The notes under the pieces: generated by a model
Database searches by the model: none
What the model was told of the DNA's origin: nothing
Seen by the model: only the letters and a program-made list of their open reading frames with translations
Program-made: the position numbers and the translations under genes
NCBI GenBank assembly: GCA_021646405.1
Contig: SOER01000003.1
Coordinates: 62,001 to 126,000, forward strand
DNA length: 64,000 bases
Reading direction: 5' to 3'
Source: Candidatus Loosdrechtia aerotolerans
GTDB lineage: Bacteria > Planctomycetota > Brocadiia > Brocadiales > Brocadiaceae
Shown here: positions 29,591 to 36,701 of the stretch, piece after piece
Position numbering within the stretch: position 1 is the first letter of the stretch
How the letters are laid out: each line of letters starts with the position of its first letter

Positions 29591-32338
29591 ATGAGCGATA
29601 CTACAATTTCTCACTGTATTTATGAGAAATCATTCTCCATGAGACTTCCTTTAAAAAACAATTCAAGTATTGTAATTATAGGCGGTGGGCCATCAGGTAG
29701 TTTCTTTACCTATTTCACCCTCAAGCTTGCAAGGAAATACGGATATAATCTTTCATTAACAATCTTTAATGGAAGGGACTTTATTCAGAAGGGCCCTGTT
29801 GGTTGTAATATGTGTGCAGGAGTCCTGTCAGAGACCCTTATCGAAAGAATGGAATCTGAGGGGATTGTACTACCAAAGACACACGTCCAGCAGGAGATTA
29901 ACGGCTACTATTTTCAAACACAAGAGCGTGGCATTCCATTATATCACCCGGTACCAGGACATAAGCCGAAGATTGTAACAATATTTCGGGGGAATGGCCC
30001 CCGGTTTTCCAGGCTAACGGACAATGTCAGTTTTGATGATTTTTTACTCAGGCACGTCGCAGCCCAGGGCGCAAAGATTATCCCTGCCGTTGTAGAAGAA
30101 ATAGAGCTATCAAAAAACCCGCATGATTTGGTAAATATTGTTTACTCCGAAGCAGGTGTAAAGAAAAAGATATCCGCACATCTTGTCGTTGGGGCATTTG
30201 GTCTTAATACATCTCTGATTAAAAGGATTGTGGGCAAGGAATTTGGATACCGGGAACCGCAATCCGTGCGTACCTGTAATGCAGAACTTCGCTTAGGACG
30301 CCCGTTTATTCAGGAAAACTTCCACAATACCATTTTTGTATTTGCGTTAGGAATCAAACCCATCAAATTTGCTGCCTTCATACCGAAGGGAGATTATATT
30401 ACGGTTTCTCTTGTTGGTAAAGAAGATATTACAAAGGCACATTTAACAGAATTCTTGAAACACCCTAAAGTACGAGAACTTCTACCCGACGGATGGTCAT
30501 TACCAAAAGATCTCTGTATTTGCTTCCCGAGAATCCCGATTTCCCATGCCACCCACCCGTATACCAACCGATTTGTTATCGTAGGAGATGCCAGCATCTC
30601 ACGTACTTATAAGAATGGCATTGGGTCTGCTTTTGATACTGCAAAACTAGCATCATATACCATCTTCAAAAATGGAATCGCTGAAAATGATTTTAAGAAA
30701 GGATATTTTATCCCTGCATTAAAACTTTTAGCGCAGGATAACTTCTTTGGTAATCTTATATTTGGTATACACGGCTATACCACATCCAGCCGGCAGCTGG
30801 TAAATATTCAGATTGATCATCTTATGAAACATAAAAATGCCTGGGAATCAAGACAGATTAACAGCATTCTATGGAATATGGTTACCGGTAATGCAAGTTA
30901 TAAAGAGATTTTCCTCAAGGTTATTGATGTACGTCTCCATGTATTGATGTTCCCCTATATCTTTTCTGCCCTTGCAAAACAAGCATATGAATATCTGGAT
31001 AACCACCTGCATCCGGGACAAGACAAAACAGTGACATCTCAAAAAGAACTGGAATTAGGTCCTTTGAAAAATGGGCAAACGGTCGCCATTATTGGAGGGG
31101 GACCTGCAGGTGCAAGTTGTGCAATCGCCTTAAAAAATCTCGCAAAAAAACAGAATATCAGCATAGATGTCATCCTGTATGAGATGAAAGACTTTGAAGG
31201 TGGTATTGAACACAACGAATGTGCCGGAGTCCTTTCACAACCCATAGAACGTATTCTTGAAGAAAAACTTAATATCCCGTTTCCATGGCATCTCGTTAAA
31301 AGGGAGGTGTCAGGTTATTACCTCCATACTGACGGACAGATTGTCAAACTCGATGGAGAAGGAGAAATCTCTTACGCAGTCCGCAGGATTCAATTCGACG
31401 CTTATCTTTTAAAAAAGGCAAAAGAGGCTGGCGCAACGGTCATCCAAAGCAAAGTTACTGATGTAGAGATTGGTAAACATAAGGTTACGGTGTACAGCGA
31501 TACAAAGCATATTTTAGCTGACGTTGTCGTTGGGGCGTTTGGTCTTGAAGAGGGCACCAACAGGGTATTTGAAAGTGAAACATCCTATGAATCACCGGGA
31601 TTCATTCTTACTCTGTTAACCAAATTCCACCCGAAAGGAAAACTTCATGAACTAGAAAATACCAATGGATATATCCATGCCTTTTTACCTTCTGGTAAAG
31701 GAATAGAATTCGGTGCCATTACCCCGAAGGCAGATCACTATACGATCAATATCGCAGGTGCAAAGATTTCATCCAGGTCTATGGACAAATTTCTTCGATT
31801 ACCTGAGGTTTTAGCCATACTTCCCGAAAATTTTAAAGAGTCGCTGGATAAACTTGATTACCATCGCGGTTGTTTTCCTATAAGACCTGCAAAAAATCTC
31901 TTCGGGAATAGATATGTCACTGTTGGCGATGCCGCTGGTCTCATACGCCCATTTAAGGGTAAGGGAGTTAATGCAGCATGCCTGATGGGCATTGCTGCCG
32001 CAGAAACAATGATGCATGTTGGTATATCGAAAGAGGCTTTCCGCACATATGCAGACAGTTTTCGGGAAGTCATGAAAGATCTTCCTTATGCAAAAGCGGT
32101 AAGAAGATTTGTTATCTGGGGCACACGTTATGGTTTTCTTACCCCTATTATCCAAACTGCAAAGAACCATCCATTATGCAAAAGGGCATTATTTGATAGT
32201 ATATCGGGCAAAAAGATGTACCGGGAGATATTGTTAAGTACCATGAGTGTGGCACTTTTTCTAAAAATAGCTGCACTACTCGCTCAGTGGTCTGTAAAGC
32301 GTATATATAACTCCTTTAAGTATTTCTCCCGCTTTTGA
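29591..32338 (+). CDS. Tandem FAD-dependent oxidoreductase (two geranylgeranyl-reductase-like units fused)
   Basis: 915 residues, about twice the usual length. Each half starts with an FAD dinucleotide motif (GGGPSG near residue 32; GGGPAG near residue 500), then a CAGVLS segment (GCNMCAGVLSETL and HNECAGVLSQPI), then a VVGAFGL segment, and ends with the second FAD motif (VIVGDASISRTYKNG and VTVGDAAGLIRPFKG). The halves are clearly duplicates. The family includes geranylgeranyl reductases and related oxidoreductases of isoprenoid lipids, so it may reduce double bonds of polyprenyl chains. Which half is active is not clear; both FAD motifs look intact. Start at 29591 has no strong ribosome site; 29639 is an alternative. 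Confidence 0.82.
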   Translation: MSDTTISHCIYEKSFSMRLPLKNNSSIVIIGGGPSGSFFTYFTLKLARKYGYNLSLTIFNGRDFIQKGPVGCNMCAGVLSETLIERMESEGIVLPKTHVQQEINGYYFQTQERGIPLYHPVPGHKPKIVTIFRGNGPRFSRLTDNVSFDDFLLRHVAAQGAKIIPAVVEEIELSKNPHDLVNIVYSEAGVKKKISAHLVVGAFGLNTSLIKRIVGKEFGYREPQSVRTCNAELRLGRPFIQENFHNTIFVFALGIKPIKFAAFIPKGDYITVSLVGKEDITKAHLTEFLKHPKVRELLPDGWSLPKDLCICFPRIPISHATHPYTNRFVIVGDASISRTYKNGIGSAFDTAKLASYTIFKNGIAENDFKKGYFIPALKLLAQDNFFGNLIFGIHGYTTSSRQLVNIQIDHLMKHKNAWESRQINSILWNMVTGNASYKEIFLKVIDVRLHVLMFPYIFSALAKQAYEYLDNHLHPGQDKTVTSQKELELGPLKNGQTVAIIGGGPAGASCAIALKNLAKKQNISIDVILYEMKDFEGGIEHNECAGVLSQPIERILEEKLNIPFPWHLVKREVSGYYLHTDGQIVKLDGEGEISYAVRRIQFDAYLLKKAKEAGATVIQSKVTDVEIGKHKVTVYSDTKHILADVVVGAFGLEEGTNRVFESETSYESPGFILTLLTKFHPKGKLHELENTNGYIHAFLPSGKGIEFGAITPKADHYTINIAGAKISSRSMDKFLRLPEVLAILPENFKESLDKLDYHRGCFPIRPAKNLFGNRYVTVGDAAGLIRPFKGKGVNAACLMGIAAAETMMHVGISKEAFRTYADSFREVMKDLPYAKAVRRFVIWGTRYGFLTPIIQTAKNHPLCKRALFDSISGKKMYREILLSTMSVALFLKIAALLAQWSVKRIYNSFKYFSRF

Positions 32339-32391: not shown

Positions 32392-32970
32392 CTACTCAAG
32401 ATTGGAGTGCCTCTTGTGCATATCATGCTCAGAACTATTCAACCTTGCTAAAAGCGAAAGGATAACTCCGTCTAAATAAACAAGGCATGCCTGCTCAAAA
32501 AGGGTACTGCGAAACTGAATAGATCCGTTATTCTTATAATTGGTACTTACCTCCTGTACAGGCAATTCAATAATAACATCTGCACCTCGTGCGAGCGGGG
32601 AGTTCCTTTGAGACGTCACAGCAGCTATCATAGAGTGTGAATTTTTAGCTAATCCTGCAATATAACAAGTGATATGAGTACTGCCAGAACTACTGCATGC
32701 TACCAATAAATCACCCTTATCAATATTCGGGGTTGTAGCATCGCCAACACAATAAGCACTCAAACCGATATGGGTAAGTCTCATTGCGAAGGTACGTGAT
32801 ACCAAACCCGACCGTCCTTGCCCTGTAACAAATATATTTTTTGCAGTAAGAATCGATGAAATAAACTGTTGATAAGCATGATCATCAATCTTCTCAAGTA
32901 CAGAACGAATTTCATCCAATATAATCTGCGTAGTCGCTTTAATACTTATTGAGCCGTTCTCGATCTTCAA
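32392..32970 (-). CDS. hxlB: 6-phospho-3-hexuloisomerase (SIS domain)
   Basis: 192 residues. One SIS sugar-isomerase domain: FVTGQGRSGLVSRTFAMRL, then VGDATTPNIDKGDLLVACSSSGST. The GQGRSG and SSSGST motifs bind the phosphosugar. HxlB interconverts hexulose-6-phosphate and fructose-6-phosphate in the ribulose monophosphate pathway, which in many organisms without formaldehyde growth serves pentose supply. The partner synthase HxlA is not next to it. Convergent with the FAD oxidoreductase, 53 bases apart. Confidence 0.88.
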   Translation of the reverse strand: MKIENGSISIKATTQIILDEIRSVLEKIDDHAYQQFISSILTAKNIFVTGQGRSGLVSRTFAMRLTHIGLSAYCVGDATTPNIDKGDLLVACSSSGSTHITCYIAGLAKNSHSMIAAVTSQRNSPLARGADVIIELPVQEVSTNYKNNGSIQFRSTLFEQACLVYLDGVILSLLARLNSSEHDMHKRHSNLE

Positions 32971-33240: not shown

Positions 33241-33483
33241 ATGGGGGTTTTCTTAGGTAAAATTATCAGTCTCTATGAGATCGCATTACTTATTAGAATT
33301 GTCCTCTCCTGGGTACCGCACAATCCGTATAACCAGGCGGTTCAATTTCTCTACAAGATTACAGATCCGGTATTAAATCCTGTACGAAAACTTATTCCAC
33401 CTTTTAGGGGTATAGATTTTTCTCCCGTAATTGTATTCGTCGGGTTGGGTATTCTCAAGCGAATTGTAGTGTCACTATTCTAA
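33241..33483 (+). CDS. YggT-family small membrane protein
   Basis: 80 residues, two membrane hairpins separated by the conserved SWVPHNPYNQAV...ITDPVLNPVRKLIPP stretch (the YggT signature). Function is unclear; in other bacteria it is placed with genes for cell division or ion homeostasis. Good AAGGAG ribosome site before the ATG. Independent of its neighbours by direction and spacing. Confidence 0.88.
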   Translation: MGVFLGKIISLYEIALLIRIVLSWVPHNPYNQAVQFLYKITDPVLNPVRKLIPPFRGIDFSPVIVFVGLGILKRIVVSLF

Positions 33484-33576: not shown

Positions 33577-34857
33577 ATGGTAGATACACCTACTGCAATG
33601 AAAAAAATTGTTATTATGGATGTAGATGGTGTCCTATTTAAAGGGCAATTTCTTCTCCATCTGGCACGTTCTTTAGGAGCGTTTGTATATATTCGAACTG
33701 CACTCCTGTGCTTTCTCTTTAATTTGAATAAAATTTCTATTCGAGAACTGCTTCTTCAGGTATATGAACGCTTTAAAGGTATTGAGCTTGAGTATGCCCG
33801 GAAGGTTTATCAGAATATTCCTCTTATAGGTAATGCAAAAGAGACCATTGAGGTATTGAGAGATAATGGCTACTCTGTTATTCTTATGAGCAGTGGCGTA
33901 CCTGATGTATTTGTGAAAGACCTTGCAATGCGGTTATCAGCAAATGACGGTTACGGTATAGAAATTGGTATACAGAATAAAAAGCTGACAGGAGAGGTAT
34001 CCGGACGTCTTGTACTCCCCAATGGAAAGAGAGATTTTGTTGAAGAACTCTTAAACAAATATAATCTTACCTGGCAGAATACCGTTGTTCTCGTGGACGA
34101 CCGGAATAACCTTGACATTATGCATAAAGCCAGTATTAATATTGGCGTTAACGCTCATTATGCCGTACGGCAGCGGGCACATTATCTTATTGACAGCAGG
34201 AACCTTGCAGAGGTACTCGACATCCTCAGTATAACAGACGCTCATACATTCCAGACCCTGTTTGCAGGCATTCACAAGCAGTTTGTACACTCCTGGTATC
34301 AGGAAATTCGGAGAAAACTGCTACATGTTTTGATTGCATTTGTACCGGTATTCTCAAGTCTCATCTACCACACAACTATCATGGTACTTTTTGCCGTATT
34401 GGTTGTTTATTTGATTTCTGAATGCTTAAGAGTTAATGGATACTCATTTCCGATACTGGGAAGGATAACAAAATCCAGTATCCGTAAAGCTGAGGAACGA
34501 GATTTCGCACTTGGACCAGTAACCCTGGTTCTCGGTGCGATTTTTTCTTTACATTTTTTTCCTGCTGTCATTGCGATTGTTGCTATCTGGATCGTTGCAT
34601 TTGCTGATACAGCTGCAACATTAGTTGGAAAAAGTTTTGGTAATTATCGCATTCATTATAATAAAAAAAAGAGTTATGAAGGCACCCTGGCGGCTTTGAT
34701 AGTCGCTTTTTTCTGTGGGTGTGTATATTTCCCTGTCCCAGTAGCTTTACTTACGGCAACCTTTTCAAGTATAATAGAATCATTACCATTAAAATCATTT
34801 GATAATCTGCTTATGCCCATTGGAACCGGGATTCTCCTTCTCTGCCTCGGATACTGA
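33577..34857 (+). CDS. HAD phosphatase fused to a phytol/dolichol-kinase-like membrane domain
   Basis: 426 residues. The N-terminal ~220 residues are a haloacid dehalogenase phosphatase: VIMDVDGVLFKG (nucleophile Asp), SSGVPDVF (motif II Ser) and VLVDDRNNLD (motif IV Asp pair). The C-terminal ~190 residues are six to seven membrane helices of the phytol kinase/dolichol kinase family: REIRRKLLHVLI at the start (RKxxH), FADTAATLVGKSFG and KKKSYEGTLAA. Kinase and phosphatase of prenols or lipid alcohols in one chain suggests salvage or control of polyprenyl or phytol-like phosphates. Substrate is not known. An internal ATG at 33598 is an alternative start. Confidence 0.75.
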   Translation: MVDTPTAMKKIVIMDVDGVLFKGQFLLHLARSLGAFVYIRTALLCFLFNLNKISIRELLLQVYERFKGIELEYARKVYQNIPLIGNAKETIEVLRDNGYSVILMSSGVPDVFVKDLAMRLSANDGYGIEIGIQNKKLTGEVSGRLVLPNGKRDFVEELLNKYNLTWQNTVVLVDDRNNLDIMHKASINIGVNAHYAVRQRAHYLIDSRNLAEVLDILSITDAHTFQTLFAGIHKQFVHSWYQEIRRKLLHVLIAFVPVFSSLIYHTTIMVLFAVLVVYLISECLRVNGYSFPILGRITKSSIRKAEERDFALGPVTLVLGAIFSLHFFPAVIAIVAIWIVAFADTAATLVGKSFGNYRIHYNKKKSYEGTLAALIVAFFCGCVYFPVPVALLTATFSSIIESLPLKSFDNLLMPIGTGILLLCLGY

Positions 34858-34975: not shown

Positions 34976-35389
34976 ATGCGTATACTTGGAATCGATTATG
35001 GTGAAAAACGAATCGGCATAGCAATAAGCGATCCACTTGGAATTACCGCACAAGGATTACCAACGATAGAATGTACCCACAGGGAGGAAGATTTAAAAAA
35101 AATAGCAAACATTGTCCGTGAAAAGGACGTGAAAGAAATTGTTGTTGGTCTGCCAAAACATATGAATAATACCCTCAGCGATAAAGCATTTACCGTCCTG
35201 GCCTTCATCGATTCATTAAAAAAGCATGTCCATATTCCTATAAAAACCGTGGATGAAAGACTCAGCACCGTTAGGGCCAATAAGGCTATGTTAGAAGGAG
35301 ACCTCTCGAGAAAAAAGAGAAAAAAGCGAATCGATATGATTACTGCTCAGCTTATACTGCAAACATATTTAGATATGATTAGGAAATAA
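34976..35389 (+). CDS. ruvX: Holliday junction resolvase-like/pre-16S rRNA nuclease RuvX (YqgF)
   Basis: 137 residues, standard size. RNase H fold with the metal-binding Asp in MRILGIDYGEKRIGIAISDP, the VVGLPKHMNNTLSD block and the C-terminal VDERLSTVRAN. Family members process pre-16S rRNA 5' ends or resolve junctions; in YqgF both have been suggested. Same direction as the following U32 gene, 73 bases apart. Confidence 0.94.
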   Translation: MRILGIDYGEKRIGIAISDPLGITAQGLPTIECTHREEDLKKIANIVREKDVKEIVVGLPKHMNNTLSDKAFTVLAFIDSLKKHVHIPIKTVDERLSTVRANKAMLEGDLSRKKRKKRIDMITAQLILQTYLDMIRK

Positions 35390-35462
35390 AAAACGTACAG
35401 AGCCTATACACATTTTATTTATTACCACTGTGCAGAAATATTTACGAGTATTTCAAAAATCT

Positions 35463-36701
35463 ATGATACAAACAGATGCTGTACACAATAAAAAACCGGA
35501 ACTCGTTGCACCAGGCGGGGATATCGAGAAACTGAAAACCGCAATAGAGTATGGTGCCGATGCTGTCTATACCGGTGGGGAAGGTTTTAATCTCCGCATG
35601 GGCGCCTCTCATATGACCCTGCAGGAAGTGAAAGAGGCTACCGCATGGGTTCACGACCGTGGCAAAAAAATCTACATTACGTTAAATATTTTTGCGCATA
35701 ATTACCATATTCGTGGTATACGATCCTATATAGAAAAACTTGCAGAAATCCCGATAGATGCTGTAATTATTTCAGATCCTGGCATTTTCCTGACGGTAAA
35801 AGAAATTGCCCCGCATATTCCTGTCCATCTCAGCACGCAGGCGAATACTACCAACATAAAGTCTGTCGAATTCTGGTATCAACAGGGTATACACAGAATA
35901 ATCCTCGCCCGGGAATTAACCTTAGGCGAGATTCAGGAAATCACCCAGAATTCTCTCTCAGAAACCGAGGCATTTGTACATGGAGCTATGTGCATGTCGT
36001 ATTCTGGACGCTGCCTCTTGAGCAGCTTTTTGACAAACCGGCATGCAAATCTTGGAGACTGTTCTCATTCATGCCGGTGGCACTACACCCTCCGGGAGGA
36101 AAAACGGCCGAATGAATCATATCCTATTATTGAAGATGAAAGCGGCACGTTTATTTTAAGTTCCAAGGATCTCTGTATGATTCAGCATATTCCAGAGTTA
36201 GTCCGTGCAGGTATTACGGCATGGAAAATAGAAGGACGGATGAAAAGCCAGTATTATGCTGCTGTTGTTACCAGGATATACAGAGAGGCAATAGATCAGT
36301 ATTTTGCAAACCCTGATAAATATCTCTACGATCCGAGATGGCTCGAAGAACTTGAGAAGGTTAGTCATAGGGAATATGGAACTGGTTTCTTTTTTGGGAA
36401 CCAAGGATATAAAAGCCAGACAATGTATCCGGAAAATTCTCCGATAAAAGGATATAATTACCTTGGAACAATCTCTAATGTCCTTTCAGAAGACATAGCC
36501 GAAGTTCTCGTAAAAAACAGGATTTCTCATAATACACCTGTAGAGATCATGGGGAAGCGTTTACATGATGATTTTCGTGAAGTGCTTGACATAAGAAACG
36601 AATACAATGAACCCGTAAAATCTGCCAACGCAGGGCAAAAGATACTGATAAAAGTATCACGTCCTGTTGATAAGTATTTTATGATTAGGAAGTGCTCATG
36701 A
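35463..36701 (+). CDS. U32 family protein, YegQ/TrhP-like (tRNA hydroxylation type)
   Basis: 412 residues from the ATG at 35463; a GTG at 35430 would add 11 residues, and neither has a good ribosome site. The N-terminus KPELVAPGGDIEKLKTAI and the block with HGAMCMSYSGRCLLSSF and GDCSHSC are typical of U32 proteins such as YegQ (TrhP), which carry four cysteines for an iron-sulfur cluster and take part in prephenate-dependent hydroxylation of tRNA wobble uridine. I infer that role by family; the protease label of older annotation is not supported. It overlaps the next gene by four bases, so the two are translationally coupled. Confidence 0.85.
   Translation: MIQTDAVHNKKPELVAPGGDIEKLKTAIEYGADAVYTGGEGFNLRMGASHMTLQEVKEATAWVHDRGKKIYITLNIFAHNYHIRGIRSYIEKLAEIPIDAVIISDPGIFLTVKEIAPHIPVHLSTQANTTNIKSVEFWYQQGIHRIILARELTLGEIQEITQNSLSETEAFVHGAMCMSYSGRCLLSSFLTNRHANLGDCSHSCRWHYTLREEKRPNESYPIIEDESGTFILSSKDLCMIQHIPELVRAGITAWKIEGRMKSQYYAAVVTRIYREAIDQYFANPDKYLYDPRWLEELEKVSHREYGTGFFFGNQGYKSQTMYPENSPIKGYNYLGTISNVLSEDIAEVLVKNRISHNTPVEIMGKRLHDDFREVLDIRNEYNEPVKSANAGQKILIKVSRPVDKYFMIRKCS

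Follow-up and report, generated by a model that had tools for sequence, protein, structure and literature searches.

A phosphatase-kinase fusion gene and its surroundings

The window, meaning the whole 64,000-nucleotide stretch of Candidatus Loosdrechtia aerotolerans DNA that was analysed, carries at 33577-34857 (+) one unbroken open reading frame of 426 amino acids, as seen in the ORF list and its translation. The features discussed here are the following.

33241..33483, + strand: YggT family membrane protein, upstream neighbour in f1 loci (Pfam, locus comparison)
33577..34857, + strand: fusion of a HAD-IB phosphatase with a CTP-dependent lipid-alcohol-kinase-like domain, 426 aa (Pfam, alignment)
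33598..34242, + strand: HAD-IB phosphatase domain, residues ~8-222, catalytic D15, D17, S105, K151 and D174, motif IV DDxNN
34243..34287, + strand: linker between the fusion halves, residues ~223-237 (from alignment)
34288..34854, + strand: membrane kinase-like domain, residues ~238-426, with R246-K247-x-x-H250, D344, G351, N362, K365 and G369
34976..35389, + strand: RuvX/YqgF (Pfam), a conserved neighbour downstream that probably has a separate function
35430..36701, + strand: U32 peptidase family protein, conserved downstream neighbour (Pfam, locus comparison)

The start codon at 33577 is directly preceded by purine-rich sequence (aggaag), and the second in-frame ATG lies at 33598. Promoter and terminator scans around the gene stayed near the level of shuffled sequence. 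The earlier note had read the chain as a HAD phosphatase joined to a phytol/dolichol-kinase-like domain, and the profile searches recovered both halves: the HAD half scored over its Pfam cut-off, and the other half was identified by a profile-profile match (E 8e-27) together with its active-site motif.

Downstream and on the same strand, RuvX or U32 follows the fusion gene in 44 of the 48 loci examined. RuvX itself was found there in at least 31 loci, a lower bound as short ORFs can be missed, and in 8 of them it shares one base with the end of the fusion gene. RuvX and U32 are housekeeping neighbours that point to no particular substrate, YggT is equally silent on lipids, and Pfam scans of the neighbours in the other families found no shared lipid gene. 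Further upstream, 29591-32338 (+) encodes a 915-aa protein with two tandem FAD domains of the geranylgeranyl reductase family (TIGR02032, two stretches); a protein of this kind lies near the fusion gene in several f1 (Brocadiaceae) loci only. The 6-phospho-3-hexuloisomerase HxlB encoded at 32392-32970 (-) scored over its cut-off and is conserved beside the fusion locus in f1.

The host genome measures 3.26 Mb, is 99.4% complete and encodes the hydrazine synthase alpha family (PF18582). With Candidatus Jettenia and Brocadia as its nearest named relatives, it is read as an anammox planctomycete within Brocadiales. As a side observation, the hydrazine synthase alpha domain was matched 11 times in G064 and 16 times in G065, two genomes of the same class outside Brocadiales; many of these matches lie in ORFs of more than 1000 aa and probably represent an expanded family and not hydrazine synthase.

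The phosphatase half is SerB-like and has lost the phosphoserine site

Pfam HAD (PF12710) matched residues 12-171 with an E-value of 4.9e-8 (34.1 bits, cut-off 27), and the closest solved relatives by sequence are the SerB phosphatases 3m1y (E 6.9e-18) and 1f5s (E 5.5e-17). The fold of the full-length AlphaFold model, a poor one built with 10 close sequences (mean pLDDT 63, pTM 0.45), also matches 3m1y (E 9.1e-11). All hallmarks of HAD subfamily IB are in place, namely the DxD nucleophile/acid, the serine of motif II, the lysine of motif III and an acidic motif IV. D15, D17, S105, S106, K151, D174, D175, N177 and N178 did not vary in any of the 47 aligned Brocadiales sequences, a set that includes one copy incomplete at its C-terminus (L056 of G060) and leaves out a contig-cut copy (L029), a split copy (G025) and same-genome duplicates. 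The catalytic positions were equally invariant in all 22 sequences of an alignment that includes two from outside Brocadiales. In the cap stretch (residues ~29-50), hydrophobicity peaked at 1.5-1.6 in three of the four fusions tested and at 1.28 in the fourth; the same region was less hydrophobic in two SerBs tested than in these four. No lipin domain was among the Pfam matches of the fusion up to E 0.1, the HAD half being SerB-like and not lipin-like.

NCBIfam serB is the closest model to the HAD half, at 88.8 bits against an equivalog cut-off of 144.15. In an alignment of 24 fusion HADs, 11 planctomycete SerBs and the PSP of M. jannaschii, we took E20, M43, F49 and R56 of the last to be the phosphoserine-binding residues. 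None of the 24 fusion HADs retained E20, M43 or R56, and only one retained F49; of the 11 canonical SerBs, 8 retained each of the four. Fusion HADs and SerBs agreed at the catalytic positions of the same alignment, and motif IV read DDxNN in the fusions versus GDxND in SerB. The loss of E20, M43 and R56 from every fusion HAD in the alignment led us to reject phosphoserine phosphatase as the identity of the protein.

One could still suppose that the fusion supplies anammox bacteria with the phosphoserine phosphatase they seem to lack, given that a canonical SerB over the cut-off occurs in just 8 of 73 genomes of the class and that the best serB match of the host genome is the fusion itself. With the binding residues lost, a serB score well under the cut-off and a canonical SerB present alongside the full fusion in five tested genomes, we regard this as very improbable. 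The rarity of canonical SerB in the class makes serine synthesis in most anammox bacteria a side question; among the 32 Brocadiaceae-family genomes tested, none had one over the cut-off. Recognising the fusion would remove a source of misannotation, as the best serB match in its genome lacks the phosphoserine site. By its sequence affinities, the phosphatase half is derived from the phosphoserine phosphatase group.

The membrane half carries the motifs of CTP-dependent lipid-alcohol kinases

Pfam CTP_transf_1 matched the whole protein with E 0.007 and 16.7 bits and the kinase half alone with 19.4 bits, in both cases below the cut-off of 24. The same model appeared at E up to 0.1 in 17 of 23 aligned kinase halves (best 1.6e-6). 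Comparing these 23 halves by hhalign with six phytol-kinase-like domains of the phylum gave 99.7% probability and E 8.2e-27; the six domains are planctomycete, with no assayed kinase sequence among them.

R246, H250, D344 and G351 were invariant in 22 of 22 sequences and K247 nearly so (Arg in the f92 pair), and R246 and D344 held in all 47 aligned Brocadiales sequences. Catalytic residues are accordingly kept in both halves, a point on which the earlier note had made its proposal depend. Presumably, G351 corresponds to the glycine of the Asp/Gly motif of yeast Dgk1. R246 and D344 lie 98 residues apart, compared with 101 for R76 and D177 of Dgk1, whose R76A and D177A mutants are described as inactive (PMC3486869). 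In the malaria prenol kinase PfPolK, RKxxH is described as a charged clamp formed by Arg29-Lys30-His33 (PMC10849223), and R246-K247-x-x-H250 has the same spacing. Both the motif test (RKxxH clamp plus Asp/Gly) and the whole-domain profile test place the domain in the SEC59/VTE5/DGK1 kinase group.

A further likeness is to CdsA (4q2e), with which the kinase-half profile shows a weak sequence-profile match (E 0.005). The AlphaFold model of the kinase half alone is weak (pLDDT 72.6, pTM 0.68), and Foldseek found no match to it at E 0.001, with CdsA absent among the best 50 rows. In a structural second look, CdsA ranked first (Z 8.4, rmsd 5.4, 160 aligned); as an unrelated helical bundle scored 8.3, this match adds little by itself. 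The fusion's domain differs from CdsA in being shorter and in carrying the RKxxH kinase clamp, and a true CdsA is encoded elsewhere in the host genome (E 2.7e-47). Judged by motifs and profiles, the C-terminal domain belongs to the CTP-dependent lipid-alcohol kinases, the group of the phytol, dolichol and yeast diacylglycerol kinases.

The fusion is widespread in the anammox order

Within Planctomycetota, to which the genome search was confined, we covered 75 genomes of the class, 62 of them Brocadiales (families f1-f5). Tallied by hand, 46 of the 62 contain the full one-frame fusion, 8 a partial, split or contig-cut copy and 8 none. The fusion is conserved well beyond its source assembly; it is not unique to it, as the earlier note had allowed it might be, and recurrence in one frame in 46 genomes rules out an assembly artefact. 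The Brocadiales genomes without it comprise four of 82-85% completeness (G012, G034, G039 and G009) and the more complete G016 (99%), G046 (95%), G053 (95%) and G001 (93%). Since G016 has no trace of the gene, the fusion is not strictly essential, unless this genome is incomplete at that place. One locus (L114, G057 C65:2915-3181) holds a remnant in which profile positions 1-41 adjoin 373-419, as if the middle had been deleted.

None of the 13 genomes from other orders of the class had the fusion, and one of them (G064) encodes the kinase half alone, without the HAD, at 39% identity. In a draw of 294 genomes from the phylum, fusions outside the class were found only in G345 and G296, which belong to one family, match at 36-38% identity and account for 2 of the 29 genomes of their own class. 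The suggestion that the fusion is conserved in Planctomycetes consequently stands for the anammox order and one other family, and fails for the phylum as a whole. Mobile sources were also considered. A viral origin was rejected, with 0 of 108 pattern stretches in viral contigs encoding a relative, as was a plasmid origin, with plasmids matching the HAD half only (at most 23.9% identity, 11 records, the annotated ones serB).

Trees were built from 22 of the 47 Brocadiales fusions and two f92 sequences. A quickly built kinase-half tree placed the fusions and the G064 protein together (95% support) and the phytol-kinase/DUF92 proteins elsewhere. The HAD tree grouped the fusions with only 87% support, one long branch disturbing the picture. 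Families f1, f3 and f4 were each recovered in both trees. This pattern fits one fusion event followed by mostly vertical descent; for the f92 family it would suggest transfer or an early divergence.

Candidate substrates

Searches for other lipid enzymes gave no match to DUF92/VTE6 (PF01940) or DgkA (PF01219) in the host genome (G000); the former is missing from 53 and the latter from 57 of 60 Brocadiales genomes. The host genome encodes one DAGK_cat (PF00781) protein besides its one CdsA, which gives it a candidate diacylglycerol kinase other than the fusion. Neither DgkA nor DAGK_cat was detected in 27 of the 45 full-fusion genomes tested, and in those of the 27 that also lack a phytol-kinase/DUF92 protein, the fusion is the sole candidate lipid-alcohol kinase in the family searches. 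A minority of Brocadiaceae has a second fusion of ~441 aa, in which a phytol-kinase-like domain is joined to a VTE6-like DUF92 domain (L083 4046-5368, L084 and L085, of G022, G019 and G017).

The earlier note had suggested prenol phosphates as possible substrates. An enzyme of this type would make a prenyl- or undecaprenyl-type monophosphate with its kinase half and remove it with the HAD half, serving salvage or lipid-carrier supply. DgkA is also an undecaprenol kinase in some bacteria, and its near absence from Brocadiales suits the idea, as do the match to phytol-kinase-like domains and the RKxxH clamp of prenol kinases. The scarcity of DUF92/VTE6 in Brocadiales, including the host, speaks against it: without VTE6, salvage to a prenyl diphosphate is not completable by that known route, although a monophosphate product is not opposed. 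Some Brocadiaceae, moreover, have their separate phytol-kinase/DUF92 fusion, the kinase domain of which falls outside the fusion clade, and the kinase superfamily also includes yeast Dgk1, which acts on diacylglycerol. The prenol phosphate assignment therefore found no support, and we consider it rather unlikely.

About equally doubtful is a division of labour in which the kinase works on a lipid, whereas the HAD half uses a different phosphomonoester, soluble or otherwise, and is held at the membrane to channel or regulate. The HAD half leaves room for this, as it descends from SerB and has a clear active site but no known specificity, and G064 has a nearby kinase without the HAD half; the hydrophobic part of the cap and the conservation of both halves in one chain suit a lipid substrate better.

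We give still less credence to the HAD half as a phosphatidylglycerophosphate phosphatase standing in for PgpA. In a survey that covered PgpA, one of several phosphatase families for this step besides PgpB, PgpC and PTPMT1, it was found in 11 of 13 genomes from other orders of the class but in just 18 of 60 from Brocadiales, the host genome being among those with no match. Its presence in 14 of 45 tested full-fusion genomes and the lack of both fusion and PgpA in G016 and G001 count against a replacement.

We tentatively favour two opposing active sites for the same lipid class in one membrane enzyme, with phosphatidate and diacylglycerol as the likeliest pair. The invariant catalytic residues, the lost phosphoserine site, the hydrophobic cap, the kinase motifs and profile matches and the 27 genomes with neither DgkA nor DAGK_cat speak for this reading; against it count the 16 of 62 Brocadiales genomes without a full copy, the DAGK_cat protein of the host, a HAD half that is not lipin-like, neighbours uninformative on lipids and the weak AlphaFold models. 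Polyprenol and its phosphate come after diacylglycerol/phosphatidate in our ranking of substrates. A lipid alcohol would receive its phosphate from the C-terminal domain, presumably with CTP as the donor, and the N-terminal HAD-IB domain with its hydrophobic cap would remove the phosphate from this product or a close relative of it, probably at the cytoplasmic face. Together, the two activities would decide how much of the lipid is present as phosphate and how much as alcohol, and some form of control would have to prevent a futile cycle.

Opposing lipid phosphatase and kinase activities usually sit on separate proteins, and a single chain with both may allow a cell to tune a membrane lipid phosphate up as well as down. 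If the fusion does hold both activities, it would offer a single testable handle on how anammoxosome and ladderane membranes are made or sized. The domains themselves are already known; what we regard as new is that they are combined, that the anammox order conserves this arrangement and that the phosphoserine site is gone. Among the open-licence papers listed on HAD/SerB-kinase fusions, on anammox or planctomycete kinases (20 of 929) and on bacterial CTP-dependent kinases, no title or opening lines of an abstract describe such a fusion, and those listed on anammox phosphoserine phosphatase or ladderane genes name no such protein. The passages seen of one paper from the ladderane gene literature (PMC12758564) mention neither dolichol nor phosphoserine.

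Comparison with known systems

With the SerB/HAD-IB phosphatases (3m1y, 1f5s), the fusion shares the fold, the catalytic positions of motifs I-III and the first aspartate of motif IV, and differs in its lost phosphoserine-binding residues, its DDxNN motif and the attached membrane kinase domain. VTE5, FOLK, PfPolK and SEC59 have the same RKxxH clamp, D...G motif and small multi-helix membrane domain, whereas the fusion adds a HAD phosphatase and its host genome lacks a DUF92 partner. A SEC59-like kinase domain joined to a second phosphate-handling domain also occurs in the planctomycete kinase-DUF92 fusions, whose clade is separate from the fusion kinase halves, and in an archaeal SEC59-like kinase-DUF92 fusion already in print (PMC5898192). 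There, in contrast, the second domain is probably a further kinase, and the two steps would follow one another and not oppose each other as proposed here.

A parallel in function may exist in yeast, where the HAD phosphatase Pah1 and the CTP kinase Dgk1 are described as opposing each other on phosphatidate and diacylglycerol and controlling membrane growth (PMC3790011). As in yeast, a HAD phosphatase of the DxDxT/V type would oppose a domain of the CTP-kinase type, and the fusion keeps the two positions on which Dgk1 depends. The yeast enzymes are two proteins, however, and Pah1 is a lipin and not a HAD-IB phosphatase, while the substrates of the fusion are only predicted. The fusion would be a one-chain functional analogue, and not a homologue, of Pah1/Dgk1. 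It is a long step further, and one we think distinctly unlikely, that a one-protein phosphatidate/diacylglycerol switch sets the flux into ladderane phospholipids and hence the growth of the anammoxosome membrane, convergent with the control of nuclear/ER membrane growth by Pah1/Dgk1 in yeast.
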